34,133 nt of DNA, taken from Pseudomonadota bacterium (GTDB lineage Bacteria > Desulfobacterota > Binatia > Binatales > Binataceae). Within the stretch, counting starts at the first letter, position 1. Each line of letters begins with the position of its first letter. Positions 23,178 to 34,133 of the stretch are shown in pieces. The DNA lies in the NCBI GenBank assembly GCA_021324885.1, contig JAJPIF010000012.1, forward strand, positions 1 through 34,133, in the 5' to 3' direction. Made by a program: the position numbers and the translations under genes. The notes beneath the pieces are model-generated. The model did no database searches, had not been told where the DNA came from, and worked only from the letters and a program-made list of their open reading frames with translations.

Positions 23178-24038
23178 TCAGCCGGCTTCATCACGCGCAT
23201 AGCGTTCCGCCAGTGCGAGCAGATGGAACAGGAATTGCCGGCGATGCGCGGGCGCTGGCGGTTCGATTTCCAGGCGCTCGCGCAGACTCTCGACGACTTC
23301 GACCAGCAGCGCCTCGGCCCGATCCTGCGGGATCGCCGGCAAACGCCGCAGCGTGCCGCGAATCAGCGCCATCTCGCGCGGCCCGATCCGCGCCAGTTGC
23401 TCCCGGGTGAGCGGCATGGATTGGGAATCCGTCGAAGCGCTGATTTCGGGCAAGGCCGGGGGACGATCCAGCCGGAGCACGATCGTACCGGCAACGTGAT
23501 CGCCCAGACGTTGGACGCCGGGCGACAGCAGCATCGAAATGAACCCGATGATGTAATTGGCGGGCAGCAGGTCCACGATTCGAAACACGTTTCGAACCAC
23601 TGAACCGCTTAAATCCACCGGCAGGCCGTTGGCCTGGACCACGCGCAGGCCCAGCAGAATTTTGCCCGGCGAACGCCCGCCACTGACAATCTCCCAAAAA
23701 GTGAAGTAGCCGCTCTCGACCGCGAACTGCATCAGGAGAAATATCGCGATTACCGTCGCGTCGAAACGGACGGGAAGCTGGCGGCCCGGACTTTGCGCAA
23801 GGCCCCCAGGGGTCTGGCGCAGCAATGAGAACAGGTATTTCTCCAGCGCCCTTGCCGCGGGCAAACTGGCAAAGAGAGTTACGAACAGGACAACGAGCAA
23901 CAGGACGATGATCACCAGGTCGGCGCTATAGGCTATAATCCGCGGAGCCGGACCTGCGATCGCCAGATCGAGCCGCACTCCCTCAGGGGAGAAAAGTTGT
24001 TGATGAGAGGCGTCAGTGCGGTCAAGCGGCAAGTCCAT
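23178..24038 (-). CDS. RDD-family membrane protein
   Basis: A 286-residue protein with the RDD domain in its first ~170 residues: LDLAIAGPAPRIIAYSADLVII carries the conserved R and D of helix 1, a second hydrophobic segment lies at ~100-115, and GGRSPGKILLGLRVVQANGLPVD followed by VVRNVFRIVDLLP gives the third signature and second D. The C-terminal ~80 residues are soluble, with LREQLARIGPREMALIRG-like charged helices. RDD proteins next to MoxR, DUF58 and SpoIIM genes are a recurring arrangement; their biochemical role is not known to me. The start at 24038 has no clear Shine-Dalgarno but the conserved SPEGVRLDL segment follows soon after it. It starts only 15 nt from the divergent spoIIM-like gene. 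Confidence 0.88.
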   Translation of the reverse strand: MDLPLDRTDASHQQLFSPEGVRLDLAIAGPAPRIIAYSADLVIIVLLLVVLFVTLFASLPAARALEKYLFSLLRQTPGGLAQSPGRQLPVRFDATVIAIFLLMQFAVESGYFTFWEIVSGGRSPGKILLGLRVVQANGLPVDLSGSVVRNVFRIVDLLPANYIIGFISMLLSPGVQRLGDHVAGTIVLRLDRPPALPEISASTDSQSMPLTREQLARIGPREMALIRGTLRRLPAIPQDRAEALLVEVVESLRERLEIEPPAPAHRRQFLFHLLALAERYARDEAG

Positions 24039-24053
24039 GGGAGATAGAGTCTA

Positions 24054-25106
24054 GTGAATCCGAGCGATCAGCAAAACGCCCAGCGGATGGGTGAGTTGCT
24101 GGATCGCGCCGAATCGGTGCGATGGCGTCTGTCATTCGACGAACTGCGGGAATTGGCCCGCCTTTACCGCGTCAATTCTGCGCGGCTTGCGATACTGCGG
24201 TCGCGCGGCCGCGATCCCGCGGCGATTCACTATCTCAATTCGCTGTGTGTTCGAGCTTATACCCATCTCCAGGTCTCGGCGCCGCGGACGCCGCAGGTCA
24301 GGGGCTTTTTCCTCCACGAGCTGCCGCGCACGCTCGCCGCCACCGCGCGGCTGCAAATGCTGGTTGCGCTGTTGATGCTGACCGGCGCGCTGGTAGGGTG
24401 GAGCGTCGTGTCGTCGAATCCGGCGGCGCTCGAGGCCCTGATTCCAGCATCGATGTATCCCCCGGTGACGCTGGAGCGGCTGGCCGGTTCGGCCCGGGCA
24501 AGGGCCGATTTCCTGGCCCATTCGCGGTTGGATTTAGGATTGAAGTCGGCGTTTTCCGCCAGCCTGTTCGTGCATAATACCAAGGTCGGACTGCTGGCAT
24601 TCACCACCGGAATCCTGGCAGGAATCCCGACCGTCATCCTGGTCTTTTACAATGGCGCGATTTTGGGCGCCTTCATCTGGATCTTCTCGCGCGACGACAA
24701 TTGGCTGAAGTTTTGGGCCTGGCTTTTGCCGCACGCGATTCCCGAGCTGCTGGCGGTCATCTTATGTTCCGTGGGCGGGTTGGTGATTGCCAAAGCGGTG
24801 GTCGCTCCGGGACGCCAGGGTGTCGCGGCGTCGCTACGCGAGGTCGCCTCGCCCGCGCTGCAGTTGGTTGCCGCCGCAGTCCCGCTTTTCGTTGCCGCCG
24901 CCGCACTGGAAAGCTTTTTGCGCGAGTCCCACCTTTCAACAGCCGCAAGGTTGACCGCAGCCGCCTTCTCAGCCGCCGCAATCGCCTGCTATGCCTGGTA
25001 CGTACACAAGCGCAATCGACGCCCTGCCCGGTTCAAGCTGGACTGGCTGTTCAAAGCAGGTGGGCCTGCCGAATCGCAAAATATCGGTTCAAGACCGGCG
25101 CCGTAA
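24054..25106 (+). CDS. SpoIIM-family (stage II sporulation protein M-like) membrane protein
   Basis: A 350-residue integral membrane protein of the SpoIIM family (PF01944-type). An N-terminal soluble part (1-95, SFDELRELARLYRVNSARLAILRSRG) precedes a transmembrane helix (~97-118), and LKSAFSASLFVHNTKVGLLAFTTGILAGIPTVILVFYNGAILGAF contains the family core; HAIPELLAVILCSVGGLVIAKAVV follows, then two more hydrophobic segments at ~255-310. In non-sporulating bacteria this family travels with MoxR and DUF58 rather than with sporulation genes, so a sporulation role is not implied. The start is GTG 24054 with GGGAG about 11 nt upstream. Its last 56 nt overlap the 3' end of the oppositely oriented DUF58 gene. 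Confidence 0.88.
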   Translation: MNPSDQQNAQRMGELLDRAESVRWRLSFDELRELARLYRVNSARLAILRSRGRDPAAIHYLNSLCVRAYTHLQVSAPRTPQVRGFFLHELPRTLAATARLQMLVALLMLTGALVGWSVVSSNPAALEALIPASMYPPVTLERLAGSARARADFLAHSRLDLGLKSAFSASLFVHNTKVGLLAFTTGILAGIPTVILVFYNGAILGAFIWIFSRDDNWLKFWAWLLPHAIPELLAVILCSVGGLVIAKAVVAPGRQGVAASLREVASPALQLVAAAVPLFVAAAALESFLRESHLSTAARLTAAAFSAAAIACYAWYVHKRNRRPARFKLDWLFKAGGPAESQNIGSRPAP

Positions 25107-26403
25107 TTGCCGCGGGGTCGAGATCGAGGGTGTGCGCGCCAAAGCGGCGGATGCGGGCAAGTCCTGCCGCGCGTTCGACGGCCAGATCCTGGAGCGCCAG
25201 CCGGCGGTAAAGACGATCGCGCGTGATCGCCGGCTCGCGTTGATCGAGTTCGGCCAGCAGCCGATCGCGCAATGCCACCAGCATCACGCAATGATGGCGG
25301 GTGAGCAGCGCCAGGTAGTTTTCGAGTTCGCGCGACGCGCTGCCCTCGACAAAATCTGTCAGCACCACGATCAGCGCCCGTTTCTTTTGATGGCGCGCCA
25401 GGGCTTCGACCAAAATTCGATAGTTCGGTTCAAAAGGATGTGGGTCGAGCTTGAGCGTCGCCTCGATTATCTGTCCTACGCCGGATGATCCGGCCCTGGG
25501 CTGCACTATCGCACGAAGTTCACGGTCAAACGCGATCAGGCCCACGCGGTCGCCGTACTCCATCGAGGCGCGGGCCAGCGCCGCCGCCGAATTGATTGCA
25601 TGATCGAGCTTGGAGACCGCGTCAACCCGCGCGGCCATCAGACGGCCGGTATCGATGGCGATGAAAATGGTGTGGCGGCGCTCAGTCTGATACTGGCGGA
25701 CTATTAGATGGCCCCGGCGCGCGCTGGCGTGCCAGTCCACGTGGCGCGGATCGTCACCTTCGACGTAATCGCGCAGCGACTCGAATTCCGATCCCTCCCC
25801 GCGCGCCGGGCGCGGCCGCAGGCCGAGTTCCTCGCTCACCGACTTCTGGATCAGCCCCTTGCGCTTGCCCGCTTTCACCGAGGAAGGCAGGATCGCGACC
25901 GCGCTTCCCCCTGGTGTCCTGGCGTGAAAACGCAGCAGGCCCAGGCGCGAACGCCACTGAACGACGGTCGTGCCAATCTCGCGCATGCCGCGCGCCTTTG
26001 GCGTCAGGACGCGCGTCAGCTCGAGGCGCTGGCCCGCCTTGACCTCCACGTCCTCGATAATGAGGTCGCCGCCGAGATCGGTTGGCAATTCGTCGAGCAG
26101 CGAGAGTGTGACCGGCACCGGAGCTGGATTAAGAAGCCTGTAAACCACCGTGACCATGCGGTCTTTGACCAGCCGATCGGGCAGCAACCGCTCGACTTTC
26201 GGGATCGGGTCTTTGCGGCTGATCGCCCAATCGATCAGCACGAAAGCGCACAGAGCACCGGCGAATATCAGCACCGCGACGAGCAGCGCGGGCCAAAAAA
26301 TAACGAGCAGCCCGGCGATTGCGGCGGCAGCGGCGATTCGAACCAGCCGCGAAGAAGGGCGGATTGCGATCGCGCAGTGCGCCTTCACCCAAGCGCGGTC
26401 CAT
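25051..26403 (-). CDS. DUF58 protein with von Willebrand A-like domain
   Basis: A 450-residue protein. Two hydrophobic helices (~20-60) anchor it in the membrane and a beta-rich region follows (~65-180). The DUF58 signature EFESLRDYVEGDD...VDWHASAR spans residues 206-229 and runs into a vWA-like fold (IFIAIDTGRLM, DRVGLIAFD, ALIVVLTDFVEG). The full MIDAS DxSxS pattern is reduced to DTGRL, so metal binding is uncertain. DUF58 proteins are the usual partners of MoxR ATPases. The ATG at 26403 shares one base with the MoxR stop (TAATG), implying coupled translation. Its 3' end overlaps spoIIM tail-to-tail by 56 nt. Confidence 0.9.
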   Translation of the reverse strand: MDRAWVKAHCAIAIRPSSRLVRIAAAAAIAGLLVIFWPALLVAVLIFAGALCAFVLIDWAISRKDPIPKVERLLPDRLVKDRMVTVVYRLLNPAPVPVTLSLLDELPTDLGGDLIIEDVEVKAGQRLELTRVLTPKARGMREIGTTVVQWRSRLGLLRFHARTPGGSAVAILPSSVKAGKRKGLIQKSVSEELGLRPRPARGEGSEFESLRDYVEGDDPRHVDWHASARRGHLIVRQYQTERRHTIFIAIDTGRLMAARVDAVSKLDHAINSAAALARASMEYGDRVGLIAFDRELRAIVQPRAGSSGVGQIIEATLKLDPHPFEPNYRILVEALARHQKKRALIVVLTDFVEGSASRELENYLALLTRHHCVMLVALRDRLLAELDQREPAITRDRLYRRLALQDLAVERAAGLARIRRFGAHTLDLDPAAITAPVLNRYFAIRQAHLL

Positions 26404-27368
26404 TAATGCGGCACCGCGACTTGCCGGATAACTTCCTCCACCGCCCCGTCGGGCCTCATCCCCTCGACTTCGGCGCTGGGCTCCAGCACGATACGATGGC
26501 GCAGGGTGGGCCGGATTACCGCCTGCACGTCCTCGGGCAGAACGAAATTGCGTCCCTCCAACACGGCGATCGCCTTGGCCGCGCGGATCATCAGGAGCGC
26601 GGCGCGCGTCGATGCGCCGACGGCGATCGCCGGATGTTCACGGGTGGCGCGCACCAGCGCAACCGCATACTGAAGGATTTCATCGCGCGCAATCGCGGCG
26701 TCAACTGCCGCGCGCGCGGCGGCAAGCTCGCGTGGATCGATAATCGCGGTGGCGGTCAGCTGCGGCCTGGCGCTGGCATGATGGGTCGCCAGAACCCGGA
26801 CTTCTTCCTCGGCGCTGGGATAGCTGATTTCGATTTTGAACAGGAAACGATCGAGTTCCGCTTCCGGCAACGGATACGTGCCTTCCTGCTCGACCGGGTT
26901 CTGGGTGGCAAGAACGGTAAACCAGTCGCCCAGCGCGTAACTGACACCGTCCACCGTCACTGCCCGCTCCTGCATCGCTTCCAGCAGCGCCGCCTGGGTC
27001 TTGGCTGGAGCGCGGTTGATCTCGTCCACCAGCAACAACTCGGTGAAAACGGGGCCGGGGCGGAAACGAAAATCCTTGCCATCGGGGTTGAGTATCGGCG
27101 TGCCCACGATGTCGCTGGGCATCAGGTCCGCCGTACACTGGATACGTCCGAAGCGGATTCCGAGGCTCGCCGCCAGCGCGCGCACGAGCAGGGTCTTGGC
27201 CAGTCCGGGAACGCCCTCGTAAAGACTGTGTCCGGCGCACAGAAGAGTAACGAAGGAAAGCCGAACGGCCTCCTCCTGTCCGATTACGGAGGAGGCAACC
27301 GCGGAACGAAGCGCCGCGAACAGTTCGGCCACCCTGGCCGGATCCATCGGAGTGCCGCTGTCCATCAT
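26403..27368 (-). CDS. MoxR-family AAA+ ATPase
   Basis: A 321-residue AAA+ ATPase of the MoxR clade, chaperone-like enzymes thought to mature or activate vWA-domain partners. Walker A is EGVPGLAKT (residues 51-59) and Walker B is LLLVDE (111-116), continuing as [18 protein letters not shown], the clade signature. The sensor-1 strand [26 protein letters not shown] is also visible (split: [20 protein letters not shown]). Upstream, ATG 27368 overlaps the stop of the DUF4350 gene (ATGA), and downstream the stop overlaps the DUF58 start, so three genes are translationally coupled. The DUF58 protein is the expected partner. Confidence 0.95.
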
Positions 27369-28471
27369 CGGATCTTTGGATACGACTCGATCGTTCGAAC
27401 CGCAACCAGCAGTTCCCGCCCATCGCGCGGCGCCGCGCCGTCAATAAGCCAACGGCGGGTTTCGCTGGACAGCGAGGGATCGCGCGCCAGCCGTTTGATC
27501 ACGCGCTCTTCGCTGAGGTCCCCCTGTGGCGACATCTCTTTGGCCAGGCGATGAAGAAAGCCGCAGCGATAAGCTCGGAACACCGCCGGCGGATCGTTAG
27601 CGCGCGAGTAAAGTTCCGCCAACGATTCCACGAAGGCGCCGATCGACGGCTGCCGGCGCAAATCAGGTTCGGCCAGCGTTCGCCGCGGCCATCGGCGCTG
27701 CTCGGCCATCCATAGCAGCGCGGCTACCACGCCCAGCGCCAAAGGCACGATAGCGCGCGAGCCAGTGATCAGCGCGATCAGAGACACGGGGGGCGTCAGT
27801 CCGTGACAGCGCTCCTCAAAAGCCGGCACCCCCAACGCACGCGCAAGGTCGAAGACCAGCGGGGCTGAATCGGCTTGCCCGAGGTTGGCGTTAAGCATGA
27901 AACGGCCGTCGGCAACCGCGATCAGACGCCCCGAGGCGAGTGGCAACTCCAGCGCAAAAGGCGCGCCCCCGGACCGCAGGACGACCCGCGCGTGAATGCC
28001 GCCGGTCGAGAAATGCAACAGGCCAGCGATATCTATGGTGCGCCCCACGCGGAGGAAATCGCCGGTAATCTGCGATGATTGGCCGCCTGGCTGCGTGCCG
28101 CCTGCTATCCCGAGCTTTTTCCAGTCGGCGCCGGGCCCACCGAAGACGACCGCCGTGCCTCCCGAGCGGACCCATTTCAGCACATTGAGTTGGTTGACAT
28201 CCGTATCCACGTCCGCTTGTGCGGGGATCAGAAACGACGGCAGAACCATCCACAGTATCTGCGTCTTTGGCACCTCGCTGATTCGAACATAGGAGCGGCT
28301 GACCGGCAGGTCCAGTTCGGAAAGCAGGTCGTACGCCGCCTTGTAACCCTTGCTCCCGACGCCAAAGCTGGTGGTGGAACGCTCAAACGTCGGATTAGGC
28401 CACAGCCAAAGATTGATTGCCAGCAAGACGACCAGGGCGGCGATGACCGCCGCCGGATAGCGCCGCGACAT
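27365..28471 (-). CDS. DUF4350 domain-containing membrane protein
   Basis: A 368-residue protein with an N-terminal anchor helix ([18 protein letters not shown]), an extracytoplasmic DUF4350 region ([27 protein letters not shown], then VLPSFLIPA and [16 protein letters not shown], a GATase-like strand-turn pattern typical of DUF4350), a second transmembrane helix near residues 240-260 ([24 protein letters not shown]) and a helical C-terminal cytoplasmic tail. Function unknown; the family is a regular member of MoxR/DUF58/DUF4129 clusters. ATG 28471 is preferred because GGGAG lies 8 nt upstream, although the frame is open to a GTG at 28492 that would overlap the DUF4129 gene. The stop TGA overlaps the MoxR ATG. 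Confidence 0.85.
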
Positions 28472-28476
28472 TGCAT

Positions 28477-29139
28477 TCACTCCCGCCAGCACACCAGCCG
28501 CTGATATAGCGCGGTCCAGTCCCGGTAAATATCGGGTTGGTTGTCGCGATTACCGAACCAGATGCGCTCCGTTCGCTCCACCAAAGCGCCGAGTTCCACC
28601 ACCAGCGCCTGGGCCAGCGGCGACCCGCGCAGCGCCTCCCGGATCCAGCGATTGGAACGGTCGGGGCGAAGTTCGATTACACAGCGCTCAGCCAGCACGC
28701 CAAAGCTGGCGATCATCAGGCGATGCCCAGCTTCAAGAAACTGGCCGCGATCAGCCAGCTCACGCGCCTGTTGCGCGAGGTCGGCGGGGGGCCGGGTAGG
28801 AAGCGCCTCAACGGCAGACGCCCGCGTCCTCAATACTCCCCGGATCGACCAGACGATTTGCGCGAACATTGTCGCGACGGCGATTAACAGGGCGCCAACC
28901 AGGCTCCAGTAAAGCAGCGGCGACTCTACCCGCAGAATTCCCATCCACTGCAGGAAACGATTGAGCCAATCCTGCACAAGATTGAGCAGCCGATTGAGCC
29001 AATCCTGCACAAGACCACGCAGGCTATCGAACCATTGTTGCCAGCGCAGGTCGAGTTTATCGTTGACCAGTCCATACTCGCGCCGGGCCAGGATATTGCG
29101 CGCCAGTTCGCGAATGGCAGCATCGGAAGGGTCAGGCAA
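28477..29139 (-). CDS. DUF4129 domain-containing membrane protein with an internal 11-residue repeat
   Basis: A 220-residue protein if begun at the TTG at 29139, which has AGGAC about 6 nt upstream and overlaps the previous stop; residues encoded further upstream in this frame are only the shadow of the preceding gene. It opens LPDPSDAAIRELARNILARREY, a typical DUF4129-cluster start, then has a duplicated segment LVQDWLNRLLN, one transmembrane helix (~70-95, LLYWSLVGALLIAVATMFAQIV) and a C-terminal DUF4129 helical domain (LAQQARELADRGQFLEAGHRLMIA, and ERTERIWFG). In other organisms this family is linked to transglutaminase or MoxR clusters. The function is unknown. The stop is 5 nt before the chosen DUF4350 start. 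Confidence 0.8.
   Translation of the reverse strand: MPDPSDAAIRELARNILARREYGLVNDKLDLRWQQWFDSLRGLVQDWLNRLLNLVQDWLNRFLQWMGILRVESPLLYWSLVGALLIAVATMFAQIVWSIRGVLRTRASAVEALPTRPPADLAQQARELADRGQFLEAGHRLMIASFGVLAERCVIELRPDRSNRWIREALRGSPLAQALVVELGALVERTERIWFGNRDNQPDIYRDWTALYQRLVCWRE
28958..29014 (-). repeat. 33-nt tandem duplication inside the DUF4129 gene
   Basis: On the plus strand, the 24-mer beginning CGATTGAGCCAATCC occurs at 28958-28981 and identically at 28991-29014, a period of 33 nt (11 codons). It encodes LVQDWLNRLLN followed by LVQDWLNRFLQ (order on the minus strand), an amphipathic stretch just before the membrane helix. Confidence 0.85.
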
Positions 29140-29959: not shown

Positions 29960-31111
29960 TCATCCTTCGGCGTGCAGACGGATCAGTTCGATCGTAACTT
30001 CGGTGGTCGAGATCATGTCGTTGATATCGATCCACTCGCGCACGGTGTGAATGTCGCGCATCCCGGTGCCGAGGTTAGCCACCGTCAGTCCGCGCCGATT
30101 GAGGACGTTGGCGTCGCACCCGCCGCCCATCGCCTCGGGCTTGACCACGCGACCGGCGCGGCGGGCGGCCTCGACGACCTTGCGCACGATCGGCGTGTCC
30201 TCTGCCAGGTTCATCGCCTCGTACTCCAGGCGCGCCGTGTATTGAAGGCTGGCGCTGAATTGGCGGCCCTCCAGCGTGACGGTGGCGCGCGCCACCGCGT
30301 CTTCAAAGCATTGAATCATGTGCGCGACCTGGCGCTCCAGTTTGGCCTTGTCGCGCGAGCGCGCCTCGCCGCGGACCACCACGTGATTGGGAATGATATT
30401 GAGCGCGCGCCCGCCTTCGATCATGCCCAGATTGGCCGTGGTCTCGCTGTCGATCCGCCCCAGGCGCATCGCAGCGATCGCCTCCGACGCGATCTTGATC
30501 GCCGACAAGCCGCGCTCCGGCGCCATCCCGGCGTGCGCCTCCAGACCCTGCACCGTAAATCGCAGCGCCATCGCACCCGGCGCGCGGATAAACAGGTAGC
30601 CGGGCGCGTCGCTGTCATAGACCAGTCCTTCGCGCGCGCGCACCAGGTTGAGATCGAGGTTTTTCGCGCCCAGCAGACCGATTTCCTCGCAGACGGTGAA
30701 CACCGCGTCGATCGGGCCGTGGGGGATTTGCCGTTCCCGCAGTTGATGGAGCGTTTCGCAGATAATCGCGCATCCCGACTTGTCGTCGCCGCCCAGCACC
30801 GTGCTCCCGTCGGTGCGGATGATGTCGCCTTCGACCACCGGCTTCACTCCTTCACCGGGGCTCACCGTATCCATGTGGGCGCAGATCAACAGCGGCGCGA
30901 CATTGGCCACGGTGCCGTCAAAATGAGCGATCAGGTTGCCGACCTCGCCCTTAACCTTCTCCGCCGCATTGTCGAATCGGCAGACGCCGCCAAGCTGTTC
31001 CATCTCACGCTTAAGGCGCATCGCACAGGCCCGTTCGCGGCGCGAGAGCGAATCGATCCGGACCAGTTCGAGCAGCAGGTTCTTGATACGGTCGCGGTTA
31101 ACTGCGGTCAT
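29960..31111 (-). CDS. M20-family metallopeptidase (peptidase T-like)
   Basis: A 383-residue di-zinc peptidase of the M20 family, closest by motif to the PepT-like group that trims small peptides or amidated amino acids in the cytoplasm. Zinc and catalytic residues visible are H79 and D81 in CAHMDTVSPG, the GGDDKSG motif (107-113) with the bridging aspartate, the catalytic/binding glutamates in CEEIGLLG (141-148), D167 in YDSDAPG and a C-terminal histidine in DIHTVREWI. The central lid domain (~185-300, EAHAGMAPERGLSAIKIASEAI) is the usual dimerisation insert. ATG 31111 is the start. It follows the JAMM protease gene by 61 nt on the same strand. A specific substrate cannot be named. Confidence 0.92.
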   Translation of the reverse strand: MTAVNRDRIKNLLLELVRIDSLSRRERACAMRLKREMEQLGGVCRFDNAAEKVKGEVGNLIAHFDGTVANVAPLLICAHMDTVSPGEGVKPVVEGDIIRTDGSTVLGGDDKSGCAIICETLHQLRERQIPHGPIDAVFTVCEEIGLLGAKNLDLNLVRAREGLVYDSDAPGYLFIRAPGAMALRFTVQGLEAHAGMAPERGLSAIKIASEAIAAMRLGRIDSETTANLGMIEGGRALNIIPNHVVVRGEARSRDKAKLERQVAHMIQCFEDAVARATVTLEGRQFSASLQYTARLEYEAMNLAEDTPIVRKVVEAARRAGRVVKPEAMGGGCDANVLNRRGLTVANLGTGMRDIHTVREWIDINDMISTTEVTIELIRLHAEG

Positions 31112-31172: not shown

Positions 31173-31643
31173 TTAGGTTTCGTTCAGATCGGTTTCGACA
31201 AAATCGCGGCTGGCATCATCCCACACGAATGCCGCCGCACGCTGAAAGCTTCCGTTCCTTATCGACATCACCACGTACGCCGTATCGGGATAGTCGGGAT
31301 AATCAGGATCGAAGGAGCAGGCCTGACGGCGATCGGTGGGGGAGAAATAGGCGTCGTGATCGGGATGGGAATGGTAGACGATTTTGAGCGCCAGCCCCCG
31401 GCGATCGATTTCGTTGAGCACCGCGAGTTGGGCGCGCGGATCCATCAGATACGCGGTGCGGGCGTCACGCGGATGGGCAAGCGGATCGGCGGCGTGTTTT
31501 TCGTTCTGGACGTTGCGGATCGGACGAACCTCCTCAATCTCACCCCCGCCGATCACAAACCCGCAGCATTCGTAAGGATACTCGCGCTCCGCCTGTGCCT
31601 TAATCGCGGCGAAGTTTTCCCGCCTGATGCTGACCGCTTTCAC
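31173..31643 (-). CDS. JAMM/MPN-domain metalloprotease (M67-like)
   Basis: A 156-residue stand-alone JAMM zinc protease or deconjugase. The motif is complete: E25 in YPYECCGF, H91 and H93 in YHSHPDHDAYFSPTD, with S101 and D104. Bacterial members remove tails from small ubiquitin-like sulfur carriers (as Mec does for CysO) or act in sulfur-transfer systems; no ThiS/MoaD-like carrier, E1-like enzyme or cysteine synthase gene is next to it here. The start is GTG 31643, with GGAGG 4 nt upstream, and it shares four bases (GTGA) with the stop of the ketopantoate reductase gene, so translation is likely coupled. Confidence 0.92.
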   Translation of the reverse strand: MKAVSIRRENFAAIKAQAEREYPYECCGFVIGGGEIEEVRPIRNVQNEKHAADPLAHPRDARTAYLMDPRAQLAVLNEIDRRGLALKIVYHSHPDHDAYFSPTDRRQACSFDPDYPDYPDTAYVVMSIRNGSFQRAAAFVWDDASRDFVETDLNET

Positions 31644-32641
31644 CGATCCTCCAATGCGTTGCGCCGCCAGCTCCGCTCGCGGGCGCGAATGAGAGCCGTA
31701 ATCATCCGATTGGCCGGCGCGGCAAGCCCGGCGGCATCGGACATTTCGACGATCCTGCCGTTGAGCGCGCCAATTTCAGTACGGCCGCGACGCTCCAGAT
31801 CGGCGAGCATCGAGGGATAATGCTCGCGCGTGGCCGGGATCAGCCGGTCGTAAAAGATCGCGCGGTACTCGGCGGCCGTCGCGAACGGAAGTGCAACCTC
31901 CGCGCGCCGGGCCAGGACAAAGGCCTCTTCGATGATCTGGTCCATAATCGGCCGCAACTCGGGATCGGCGCCGATCGCACCATAGTTCAATTTGAGCAGC
32001 GCGCCCAAAGGATTGAGCGCCGCATTGTAAAACAGCTTGGTCCACAAATATGGACGGACATCAGCAACCGGCTGCGACGGTACACCGGCCGCGCACAGTG
32101 CCGCCGCGATTCGCCCGGCCCGCGCAGCCAGGGTCGGCGTCGCGCAACCGCCCGATTGCGGAGCGGGACCAATTGCGACCGGCTCCGCCATCACCGTGAC
32201 GCGGACGCGACCCGGTTCAGCGATTTCCGCGCCGAAAATCAAGCGCGCGCCCAGGACCGCGTCATCGCCCACTTCGCGGCCCAGGATCTCGATATTGCCC
32301 AGTCCGTTCTGCGCGCTGATTGCGATACCATCGTGCTCCAGATGGCGTGCCAGCAAAGGCGCGGCCGTGGCGGTGTCGTAACTCTTGACCGTAACGAAGA
32401 TCGTCGCGAACCGGCGCCGGCCAAGCTCGCCGGCGTCGCGGTAGAGTTCGAATCCGCTGACCTTGCGACACCCCAACAGCCCTTCGACGGTCAGGCCGCG
32501 TCGATCGATGGCGTCCAGATGCGGCGGGCGCCCCAACAAGCTGACGTCGTTACCCGCTGACCTGAGCATGCCGCCGATAACCGAACCAAGCGCGCCCGCC
32601 CCGGCGATCAGAATGGGACCGTCTATCGTTTCAAGATCCAT
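31640..32641 (-). CDS. panE: 2-dehydropantoate 2-reductase (ketopantoate reductase family)
   Basis: A 333-residue NADPH-dependent reductase of the ApbA/PanE family, which converts ketopantoate to pantoate in coenzyme A synthesis. The N-terminal Rossmann motif is ILIAGAGALGSVIGGML (residues ~10-26); FVTVKSYDT holds the strand leading to the catalytic region, followed by SAQNGLGNIE and a C-terminal helical domain with WTKLFYNAALNPLGALL (active-site lysine) and HYPSMLADLERRGRTEIGALNG (substrate-binding region). Many paralogues with other keto-acid substrates exist, so the gene symbol is probable rather than certain. ATG 32641 starts it, divergent from the DHODH-like gene across 234 nt. It is the first gene of an apparent operon with the JAMM protease and M20 peptidase. 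Confidence 0.88.
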   Translation of the reverse strand: MDLETIDGPILIAGAGALGSVIGGMLRSAGNDVSLLGRPPHLDAIDRRGLTVEGLLGCRKVSGFELYRDAGELGRRRFATIFVTVKSYDTATAAPLLARHLEHDGIAISAQNGLGNIEILGREVGDDAVLGARLIFGAEIAEPGRVRVTVMAEPVAIGPAPQSGGCATPTLAARAGRIAAALCAAGVPSQPVADVRPYLWTKLFYNAALNPLGALLKLNYGAIGADPELRPIMDQIIEEAFVLARRAEVALPFATAAEYRAIFYDRLIPATREHYPSMLADLERRGRTEIGALNGRIVEMSDAAGLAAPANRMITALIRARERSWRRNALEDR

Positions 32642-32864: not shown

Positions 32865-32870
32865 AGGAGA
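32865..32870 (+). promoter_or_regulatory. Ribosome-binding site deciding the DHODH-like start
   Basis: AGGAGA located 5 nt before ATG 32876. It selects this start over in-frame GTG/ATG codons up to 186 nt upstream, whose residues do not resemble the family. Confidence 0.75.
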
Positions 32871-32875
32871 GACCC

Positions 32876-33718
32876 ATGGGACGGACATCGATAACGCTTG
32901 GCGGCGTGCCTCTCAACTCGACGGTAACCAACGCGTCTGGGCCGCGTTCCGCCACGCGTGAGGAGCTTTTGGAATTGAGCGCAGCGCACCCTGGCGCGGT
33001 CGTTTTCAAATCATGCAACCCCGGCGGGCTTGAAAGTCCCGACAATCTGAAAAATCCCGGCGTGGATTACTACGCGGCCCTGGCGCGCGAGCTGGCGCCG
33101 AAAAACACGGTCGTATGGGGCAGCGTGGTGGGTGTCACCGAGGACGAAATCGTCGAGGTGGCGCGCAAACTGGACGAGGCGGGCGCGAAGATCATCGAGT
33201 TAAACCTGGCTGACGATTTCGTCGCCAACTCGGTCGGGCCGTTCAAGTCCAAAGATCGTCTGAAAGGGTTGCTCAAACGCGTGCGCGAGAAGGTCAAAGC
33301 GGTACTGGCCGTGAAGGTCCCGCCTTCGGTAAAGCGCGAAGACGCAGGCGCGATCGCGGCGATCTTCAAGGAGGCCGGCGTCAAGGTCGCGGTCTGCGCC
33401 AACGACCTGCCCAAGGGCCTCGAGTTCGACCTCGCAAAGGGAACAGTGAAGGCGCCGCAGGGCGCGCTGTCTCAGACCCATGCGTTTTATCTGGTCGGCG
33501 CCGGAGCGCTCGATGTCGTGGCGGTGGGCGGCGTCGGCAGCGGCAGCGAAGCGTATTTGGCCCATTTGACAGGAGCCAAGGCCGTGCAGGTAGGCTCGGC
33601 GCTGATTAAGGAAGGCGTGGGCGCAATCGGCCGCATCGACCGCGAACTCGATCAGCTTCTGGAGCAATACGGCAAGTCGTCGGTAAGCGAAATCATCGGC
33701 CAGGTGAAGTTCGCGTAA
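32876..33718 (+). CDS. Dihydroorotate-dehydrogenase-fold flavoprotein of unknown substrate
   Basis: A 280-residue FMN-type TIM-barrel protein that aligns end to end with class 1A dihydroorotate dehydrogenase (compared by eye with Lactococcus PyrDA from memory). FMN-site residues are kept: TNASG (18-22), the lysine of VFKS (K45), VKVPP (K147) and VGGVGSGSEAY...GAKAVQVGSAL near the C-terminus. The orotate site is not: the NSMGLPN loop reads SPDNLKN (54-60), and NLSCPN reads NLADDF (110-115), so the catalytic cysteine position is aspartate (D113) and the second asparagine is lost. It may be a diverged flavoprotein with a new substrate rather than PyrD. It is transcribed alone, divergent from panE, with tRNA-Glu 130 nt downstream; no other pyrimidine gene is near. 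Confidence 0.82.
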   Translation: MGRTSITLGGVPLNSTVTNASGPRSATREELLELSAAHPGAVVFKSCNPGGLESPDNLKNPGVDYYAALARELAPKNTVVWGSVVGVTEDEIVEVARKLDEAGAKIIELNLADDFVANSVGPFKSKDRLKGLLKRVREKVKAVLAVKVPPSVKREDAGAIAAIFKEAGVKVAVCANDLPKGLEFDLAKGTVKAPQGALSQTHAFYLVGAGALDVVAVGGVGSGSEAYLAHLTGAKAVQVGSALIKEGVGAIGRIDRELDQLLEQYGKSSVSEIIGQVKFA

Positions 33719-33847: not shown

Positions 33848-33925
33848 GTCCCCGTCGTCTAGCCCGGCCTAGGACACCGGCCTTTCACGCCGGTAACACG
33901 GGTTCGAATCCCGTCGGGGACGCCA
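33848..33925 (+). tRNA. tRNA-Glu (anticodon TTC)
   Basis: A 78-nt cloverleaf. The acceptor arm GTCCCCG (33848-33854) pairs with CGGGGAC (33915-33921). The anticodon arm has CCGGC and GCCGG around the loop CTTTCAC, giving anticodon TTC (glutamate). The T arm contains GGGTTCGAATCCC. Discriminator G33922 is followed by an encoded CCA (33923-33925). Sequence similar to the IS3 transposase begins almost at once after the CCA. Confidence 0.96.
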
Positions 33926-33927
33926 AT

Positions 33928-34133
33928 GAAATCAAGGACTGGCACTACATCGCGCCGGGCAAGCCCCTGCAAAATGCCTTCGTCGAATCCTTCAACAGCC
34001 GCTTGCGCGACGAATGCCTTAACGACCATGTATTCCTGAGCCTGGCCGAGGCGCGGGCGACCATCGCAGCCTGGCGCGACGATTACAACCATTGCCGCCC
34101 GCATTCGAGCCTCGGCGCGCTGACGCCATTCGA
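33928..34133 (+). pseudogene. IS3-family transposase OrfB, C-terminal fragment (5'-truncated; runs off the right edge)
   Basis: The reading frame from 33928 gives [36 protein letters not shown] and [11 protein letters not shown], the conserved end of the rve integrase domain of IS3-type OrfB. It includes the last acidic residue of the DDE triad (E of VESFN). About two thirds of OrfB, including the first two aspartates, and OrfA are absent: recognisable similarity starts directly after the tRNA-Glu CCA. The fragment therefore cannot make an active transposase from this copy and is probably a relic or a recombination/assembly junction. A start codon is not visible. The OrfA piece at the other edge of the window may belong to the same kind of element. 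Confidence 0.85.

Follow-up and report, generated by a model that had tools for sequence, protein, structure and literature searches.

The window, the whole stretch of 34,133 nucleotides that was analysed, contains a gene for a 280-residue protein resembling dihydroorotate dehydrogenase (DHODH), together with genes for a PanE/ApbA-type reductase, a Prok-JAB metallopeptidase and an M20 peptidase (Table 1). The reading frame starts with the ATG at 32876, and AGGAGA lies ahead of the start. A scan for promoters and terminators returned no match. At 33848-34133, a tRNA-Glu (ttc) gene lies directly ahead of, or overlaps, an open frame that is cut off by the end of the window; this frame matches the rve_3 (PF13683) integrase core domain and is a piece of an IS-type transposase at the edge of the contig. 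A cluster of RDD, SpoIIM, DUF58/VWA, MoxR ATPase and DUF4350 genes (23178-28492) adjoins the region.

Table 1. Features of the DHODH-like gene and its neighbours, in coordinates of the window
Feature	Position	Strand	Evidence
M20 peptidase T-like gene	29960..31111	-	TIGR01883, 318.4 bits (cut-off 274.25)
Prok-JAB (JAMM) metallopeptidase gene	31173..31643	-	PF14464; JAMM residues
PanE/ApbA-type 2-dehydropantoate 2-reductase gene, divergent, 234 bases away	31640..32641	-	PF02558, PF08546; TIGR00745, 208.5 bits (cut-off 141.35)
AGGAGA, likely ribosome-binding site	32865..32870	+	Sequence, by eye
DHODH-like gene (280 aa), product very likely a flavoprotein	32876..33718	+	ORF, Pfam, alignment to solved structures; orthologue alignments start at residue 1 or 2
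K45 codon (class 1A Lys44, FMN N5/O4 contact)	33008..33010	+	Alignments; contacts from the available portion of PMC5881531
SPDNLKN, codons 54-60; shortened loop replacing the class 1A NSMGLPN region	33035..33055	+	Alignments
NLADDF, codons 110-115; D113 (33212-33214) on the catalytic Cys position	33203..33220	+	Alignments
K147 codon (class 1A Lys165, FMN contact)	33314..33316	+	Alignments; contacts from the available portion of PMC5881531
N176-D177 codons (class 1A Asn195-Ser196)	33401..33406	+	Alignments; orotate contacts from the available portion of PMC12481576
Codons 217-224 around GG218-219, FMN phosphate site	33524..33547	+	Alignments; available portion of PMC5881531

The protein matched PF01180 (DHO_dh) at 73.1 bits, above the gathering cut-off of 27, which places it in the superfamily. 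The best NCBIfam DHODH model was PRK02506 (120.8 bits, below its cut-off of 301), and this model was matched by 20/20 rows of the orthologue alignment (best E-value 4.1e-35). The best solved relatives were class 1A DHODHs of Trypanosoma, Leishmania, Streptococcus and Lactococcus, with best E-values of 5e-18 for the single sequence and 2e-25 for a profile, and with 24-29% identity in structural alignments. An AlphaFold model was generated from 12 sequences, four of them from virus contigs, and reached a pLDDT of 77.5 and a pTM of 0.82; an earlier model from three sequences was poor (pLDDT 49.7) and was set aside. The predicted structure, a check proposed in the earlier note, matched class 1A structures with a Z score of 28.6 and an rmsd of 2.6 over 258 aligned residues, residues 51-60 in the pocket loop being its weakest-scoring part. 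Class 1A DHODHs were the top match by both sequence and structure, and the assignment to the class 1A fold holds.

The class 1A enzymes (L. lactis PyrDA and those of T. brucei, T. cruzi and Leishmania) also share most of the flavin contacts with the protein. The 12 residues with which T. brucei DHODH contacts FMN, as given in the available portion of PMC5881531, were transferred through the single-sequence alignment. Seven were identical (K44=K45, S45=S46, N128=N110, K165=K147, N195=N176, G251=G219 and G272=G240), one was conservative (T273, replaced by S241), three differed (A20, V194 and C249, which read S21, A175 and V217) and one fell in a deleted loop, an outcome consistent with class 1A. 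Two of the differing residues, A20 and V194, contact FMN via the backbone. The Gly223 FMN-phosphate loop of class 1A was deleted or shortened in both alignments, and the loop after Lys44-Ser45 is also shorter than in class 1A. The seven identical positions and the Ser at T273 were invariant in 24/24 orthologues from the source genome's own family (f1, 41 genomes). The conservation of FMN landmarks asserted in the earlier note was borne out for most of the T. brucei contacts described in that source, and translation of the reading frame placed K45, N110-L-A-D113-D-F, K147 and AVGGVGSG where it had put them. Judged from these residues, the protein is very likely a flavoprotein.

The base position differs from that of class 1A. 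The segments ELNLSCPNV and ELNLADDFV aligned without gaps in both comparisons with class 1A structures, by single sequence and by profile, so D113 sits on the catalytic Cys, as had been claimed. No alignment made placed Cys or Ser there, and in place of the Cys of NLSCPN the protein and 24/24 aligned orthologues have D113, which answers, for this Asp, the question raised earlier as to whether NLADD is conserved.

For the substrate pocket, the orotate contacts of L. braziliensis DHODH, as described in the portion of PMC12481576 at hand, served as the reference set. Of the five contacting side chains (Lys44, Asn68, Asn128, Asn195 and Ser196), three were kept, short of the full class 1A set. Ser196 is replaced by D177, and Asn68 has no Asn counterpart, being aligned with S54 in the single-sequence alignment and with a gap in the profile alignment, in agreement with the loss of the orotate motif noted before. 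The equation of NSMGLPN with SPDNLKN is less certain than that of the Cys motif: it stood column by column in the single-sequence alignment, but most of GSINSM lay in a gap in the profile alignment. The description of the pocket as rewritten suits Cys131, Asn68 and Ser196; Lys44, Asn128 and Asn195 are still present. The retention of these last three residues, which also touch FMN, means that a related amide-bearing substrate may be used. Position 56 was D in 14 and E in 10 of the 24 f1 rows, and positions 113 and 177 were D in all 24; D/E56, D113 and D177 may face the substrate.

The other DHODH classes fitted less well. Class 1B has a Cys base that the protein lacks, the class 1B model PRK07259 scored 79.2 bits against a cut-off of 269, and no PyrK-type family was present among the ten window neighbours scanned. 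Class 2 enzymes have a Ser base and an N-terminal extension, whereas the protein has Asp and its orthologues begin at residue 1 or 2; the class 2 model TIGR01036 gave 34.9 bits against a cut-off of 200. A DHODH-like designation already exists in NCBIfam as PRK07565, 'dihydroorotate dehydrogenase-like protein' (NF005741), against which the protein scored 74.3 bits, with a cut-off of 303. The NLSCPN motif is missing, too, from two other f1 DHODH-like proteins (L030 and L031), and it is by this lack, not by a PRK07565 score, that they were set beside PRK07565; in the tree described below they fall outside the clade with an acidic base position.

A search of 148 genomes of the class with an orthologue profile (E <= 1e-15) gave matches in 45, comprising 25 genomes of f1, 12 of family f5, six of family f9 and two others. 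These two (G040 and G478) were kept out of the family counts, and the G040 protein (L029) has Cys at the base position. The alignment included 24 of the 25 f1 proteins (the G450 orthologue was left out), 12/12 from f5, 6/6 from f9 and nine other DHODH-like proteins. Position 113 was D in 24/24 f1 rows, D in 11 and E in one of the f5 rows, and D in five and E in one of the f9 rows, giving an acid in 42/42; it was C, S or N in the nine others. In the maximum-likelihood tree, which is unrooted and in which long branches meet at several joins (tool warning), a branch with support of 98/96 parted the 42 acid rows from the nine other proteins. The gene was not matched in 16/41 f1 genomes (several of them incomplete), which marks it as accessory. 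An acid at the base position is the mark of a clade, and the protein is conserved as well as accessory. DHODH-like proteins of other function are of a known kind. The adjoining JAB gene is new here, and neither a DHODH homologue with an acidic base nor the acid clade with its JAB and PanE neighbours turned up in the open-licence literature searched.

Chance and a pseudogene were rejected on the strength of 19 orthologues (58-87% identity, among 57 related genomes) and of dN/dS values of 0.079-0.205 in four orthologue pairs; these values and the Asp in 24/24 rows also make a sequencing error improbable. A search of the phylum (395 genomes, E <= 1e-25) gave four matches, all within the source family, at a limit that would overlook most f9-like relatives. 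Other phyla were covered by a scan of genome contigs with a sequence pattern, which yielded the two nearest relatives together with five distant DHODH-like proteins from Bacillota. Nothing pointed to a mobile origin: there was no tblastn match (E <= 1e-5) in 72,556 plasmid or 50,697 phage records, and no relative was found among the viral-contig candidates.

Two further groups of DHODH-like proteins were noted. Virus contigs (L096-L119) encode compact proteins in which the NLSCPNV-type motif is intact; many of these are about 230 aa long. Such a frame, of at least 190 aa, was present in 22 of the 24 virus loci fetched, one having a 25-aa frame and one none, and 2/2 proteins tested matched PF01180. 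In Bacillota, the base motif reads SVSNP in 4/4 rows (L035, L036, L037 and L038), which puts Asn on the base position and gives a further version of this site; the C-terminal part of these proteins reads like a ferredoxin-type cluster domain.

The neighbourhood of the gene is conserved in f1 and f9. The aligned JAB rows contained E, HSH, S and D residues in 27/27, which we take to be the JAMM motif. JAB lay within 1.5 kb of the DHODH-like gene in 23/25 gene-bearing f1 genomes; of the two exceptions, G002 has JAB together with PanE and M20 on a separate contig (L131), and in G011 the contig ends. Among the f1 loci read (23/25), PanE adjoined the gene in 10 and M20 was nearby in three. JAB was present in 21 of these loci, being divergent from the DHODH-like gene in 19 and running in the same direction in two (L046 and L051, genus g4). 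In f9, PanE, JAB and the DHODH-like gene were co-directional in 6/6 loci, with M20 in 5/6. The f9 proteins L087, L088, L089, L090 and L091 keep the acid, have an altered flavin site and are still encoded in the cluster. Matches to JAB, PanE and M20 were absent near the gene in 12/12 f5 loci, where the neighbours, named from sequence, included an MBL-fold protein and a cytidylate-kinase-like protein, among others. The M20 family includes ureidopropionases; pyrimidine catabolism was considered as the context of the M20 gene and rejected, as its product fits the PepT-like model TIGR01883 instead.

The shared gene order could be merely inherited and have no functional meaning. The sample is of one class, and the context in f5 differs. 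JAB matches were present in 38/41 f1 genomes, and JAB loci from 11 of the 16 f1 genomes without the gene showed no DHODH-like match (some of these loci end at a contig edge), with PanE beside JAB in four and M20 in three; the coupling of JAB to the DHODH-like gene is thus loose. Against this, the adjacency survives the change from a mostly divergent arrangement in f1 to a single direction in f9, which favours a working link between the two genes, and we consider simple inheritance of the order somewhat unlikely.

The explanation that we prefer, with about even confidence, is that the protein has the class 1 DHODH fold and works as an FMN-dependent oxidoreductase, but no longer on dihydroorotate. 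K45, S46, N110, K147, N176 and the GG/GS phosphate loops would hold FMN at the opening of the barrel. The substrate would be stacked on the flavin, and hydride would be exchanged between FMN N5 and a carbon of the substrate, with Asp113 plausibly acting as the proton acceptor or donor. This substrate would be other than orotate, because the protein lacks the Cys as well as the contacts of Asn68 and Ser196 and has acidic residues in that region (D/E56, D113 and D177). Its pathway would probably be that of the JAB metallopeptidase and the PanE-type reductase encoded next to it. The inference of the earlier note, a flavoprotein recruited to a reaction outside pyrimidine synthesis, is supported in part.

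The f9 proteins (n=6) tell against this simple picture. Here K45 is replaced by R in four and by P in one, K147 by R in 5/6, and G240 by R in three and by E in one, so FMN may have been lost from these proteins or may be bound in a different way. As the acid is kept while flavin-site residues change, it may have a role with no need for FMN, and its importance may go beyond flavin chemistry. The protein could accordingly be a non-catalytic or regulatory flavin-binding scaffold, in which the acid and its neighbours have a structural role or serve to bind a partner, such as the JAB protein, and do not act as a base. The shortened Gly223-type loop and the adjoining protease gene are in keeping with such a role; the invariance of K45, S46, N110, K147 and N176 in f1 and the low dN/dS speak against it, and we regard it as unlikely.

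Another possibility is that Asp takes over from Cys in a reaction on a different dihydropyrimidine or on a cyclic amide. This has a precedent of sorts in fungi, in which class 1A-like proteins are dihydrouracil oxidases and not DHODHs, according to the sections of PMC10395836 available. The retained counterparts of Lys44, Asn128 and Asn195 would suit a substrate of this kind. However, those fungal enzymes keep SCPNV, where the target reads NLADDFV, and their Cys is essential, the A. alternata C157A variant no longer complementing (same sections of PMC10395836). No pyrimidine-catabolism family was found among the ten window neighbours scanned, and we consider this activity highly unlikely.

A role in pyrimidine synthesis itself was addressed through the rest of the genome. 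The source genome (96% complete) encodes a separate, canonical PyrD of class 2 (L001; C2:78896-79777), as the earlier note had suggested should be looked for; it belongs to the same superfamily, but has Ser at the base position in INISSPNTPG, a longer N-terminus and a place on a distant branch of the tree. A second PF01180 match above 200 bits was present in 23/25 gene-bearing f1 genomes; these were judged canonical by score, class 2 having been read from sequence for L001 alone among them, and the matches of G449 and G450 cover the model only partly. The exceptions were G031 (91% complete), in which none was found, and G453, which had only a 65-bit fragment. The pyrD of a genome without the DHODH-like gene (L032) was also read from sequence as class 2. 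Within the text of PMC10395836 at hand, the base is Cys in classes 1A and 1B and Ser in classes 1S and 2 (its Table 1), and both a Cys-to-Ala change in class 1A DHODH of R. arrhizus and a class 1A Lys45-to-Ala change abolish complementation. Exchange of Ser and Cys is tolerated in some cases in class 2 (available part of PMC8520639), and Asp at this position is not mentioned in the portions consulted of the open-licence literature on base exchange. That the protein is still a DHODH with an unusual base, acting as a spare PyrD, would agree with its class 1A best matches and with the two exceptional genomes, but given the canonical pyrD elsewhere, the lost Asn68 and Ser196 contacts, the complementation result and the patchy distribution of the gene in f1, we consider this very improbable, and the protein very unlikely to be PyrD.

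The preferred explanation, an oxidoreductase no longer acting on dihydroorotate, can be extended to a more speculative and, in our estimate, distinctly unlikely form, in which a DHODH subfamily with a carboxylate in place of Cys works with JAB, PanE and sometimes the PepT-like protein in a new pathway, the substrate of the flavoprotein being perhaps bound to a peptide or small protein that would be trimmed by JAB. The acid clade would show re-use of the DHODH fold, in proteins that carry the Pfam label of simply dihydroorotate dehydrogenase, and the recurring JAB and PanE neighbours provide a concrete lead to the pathway.
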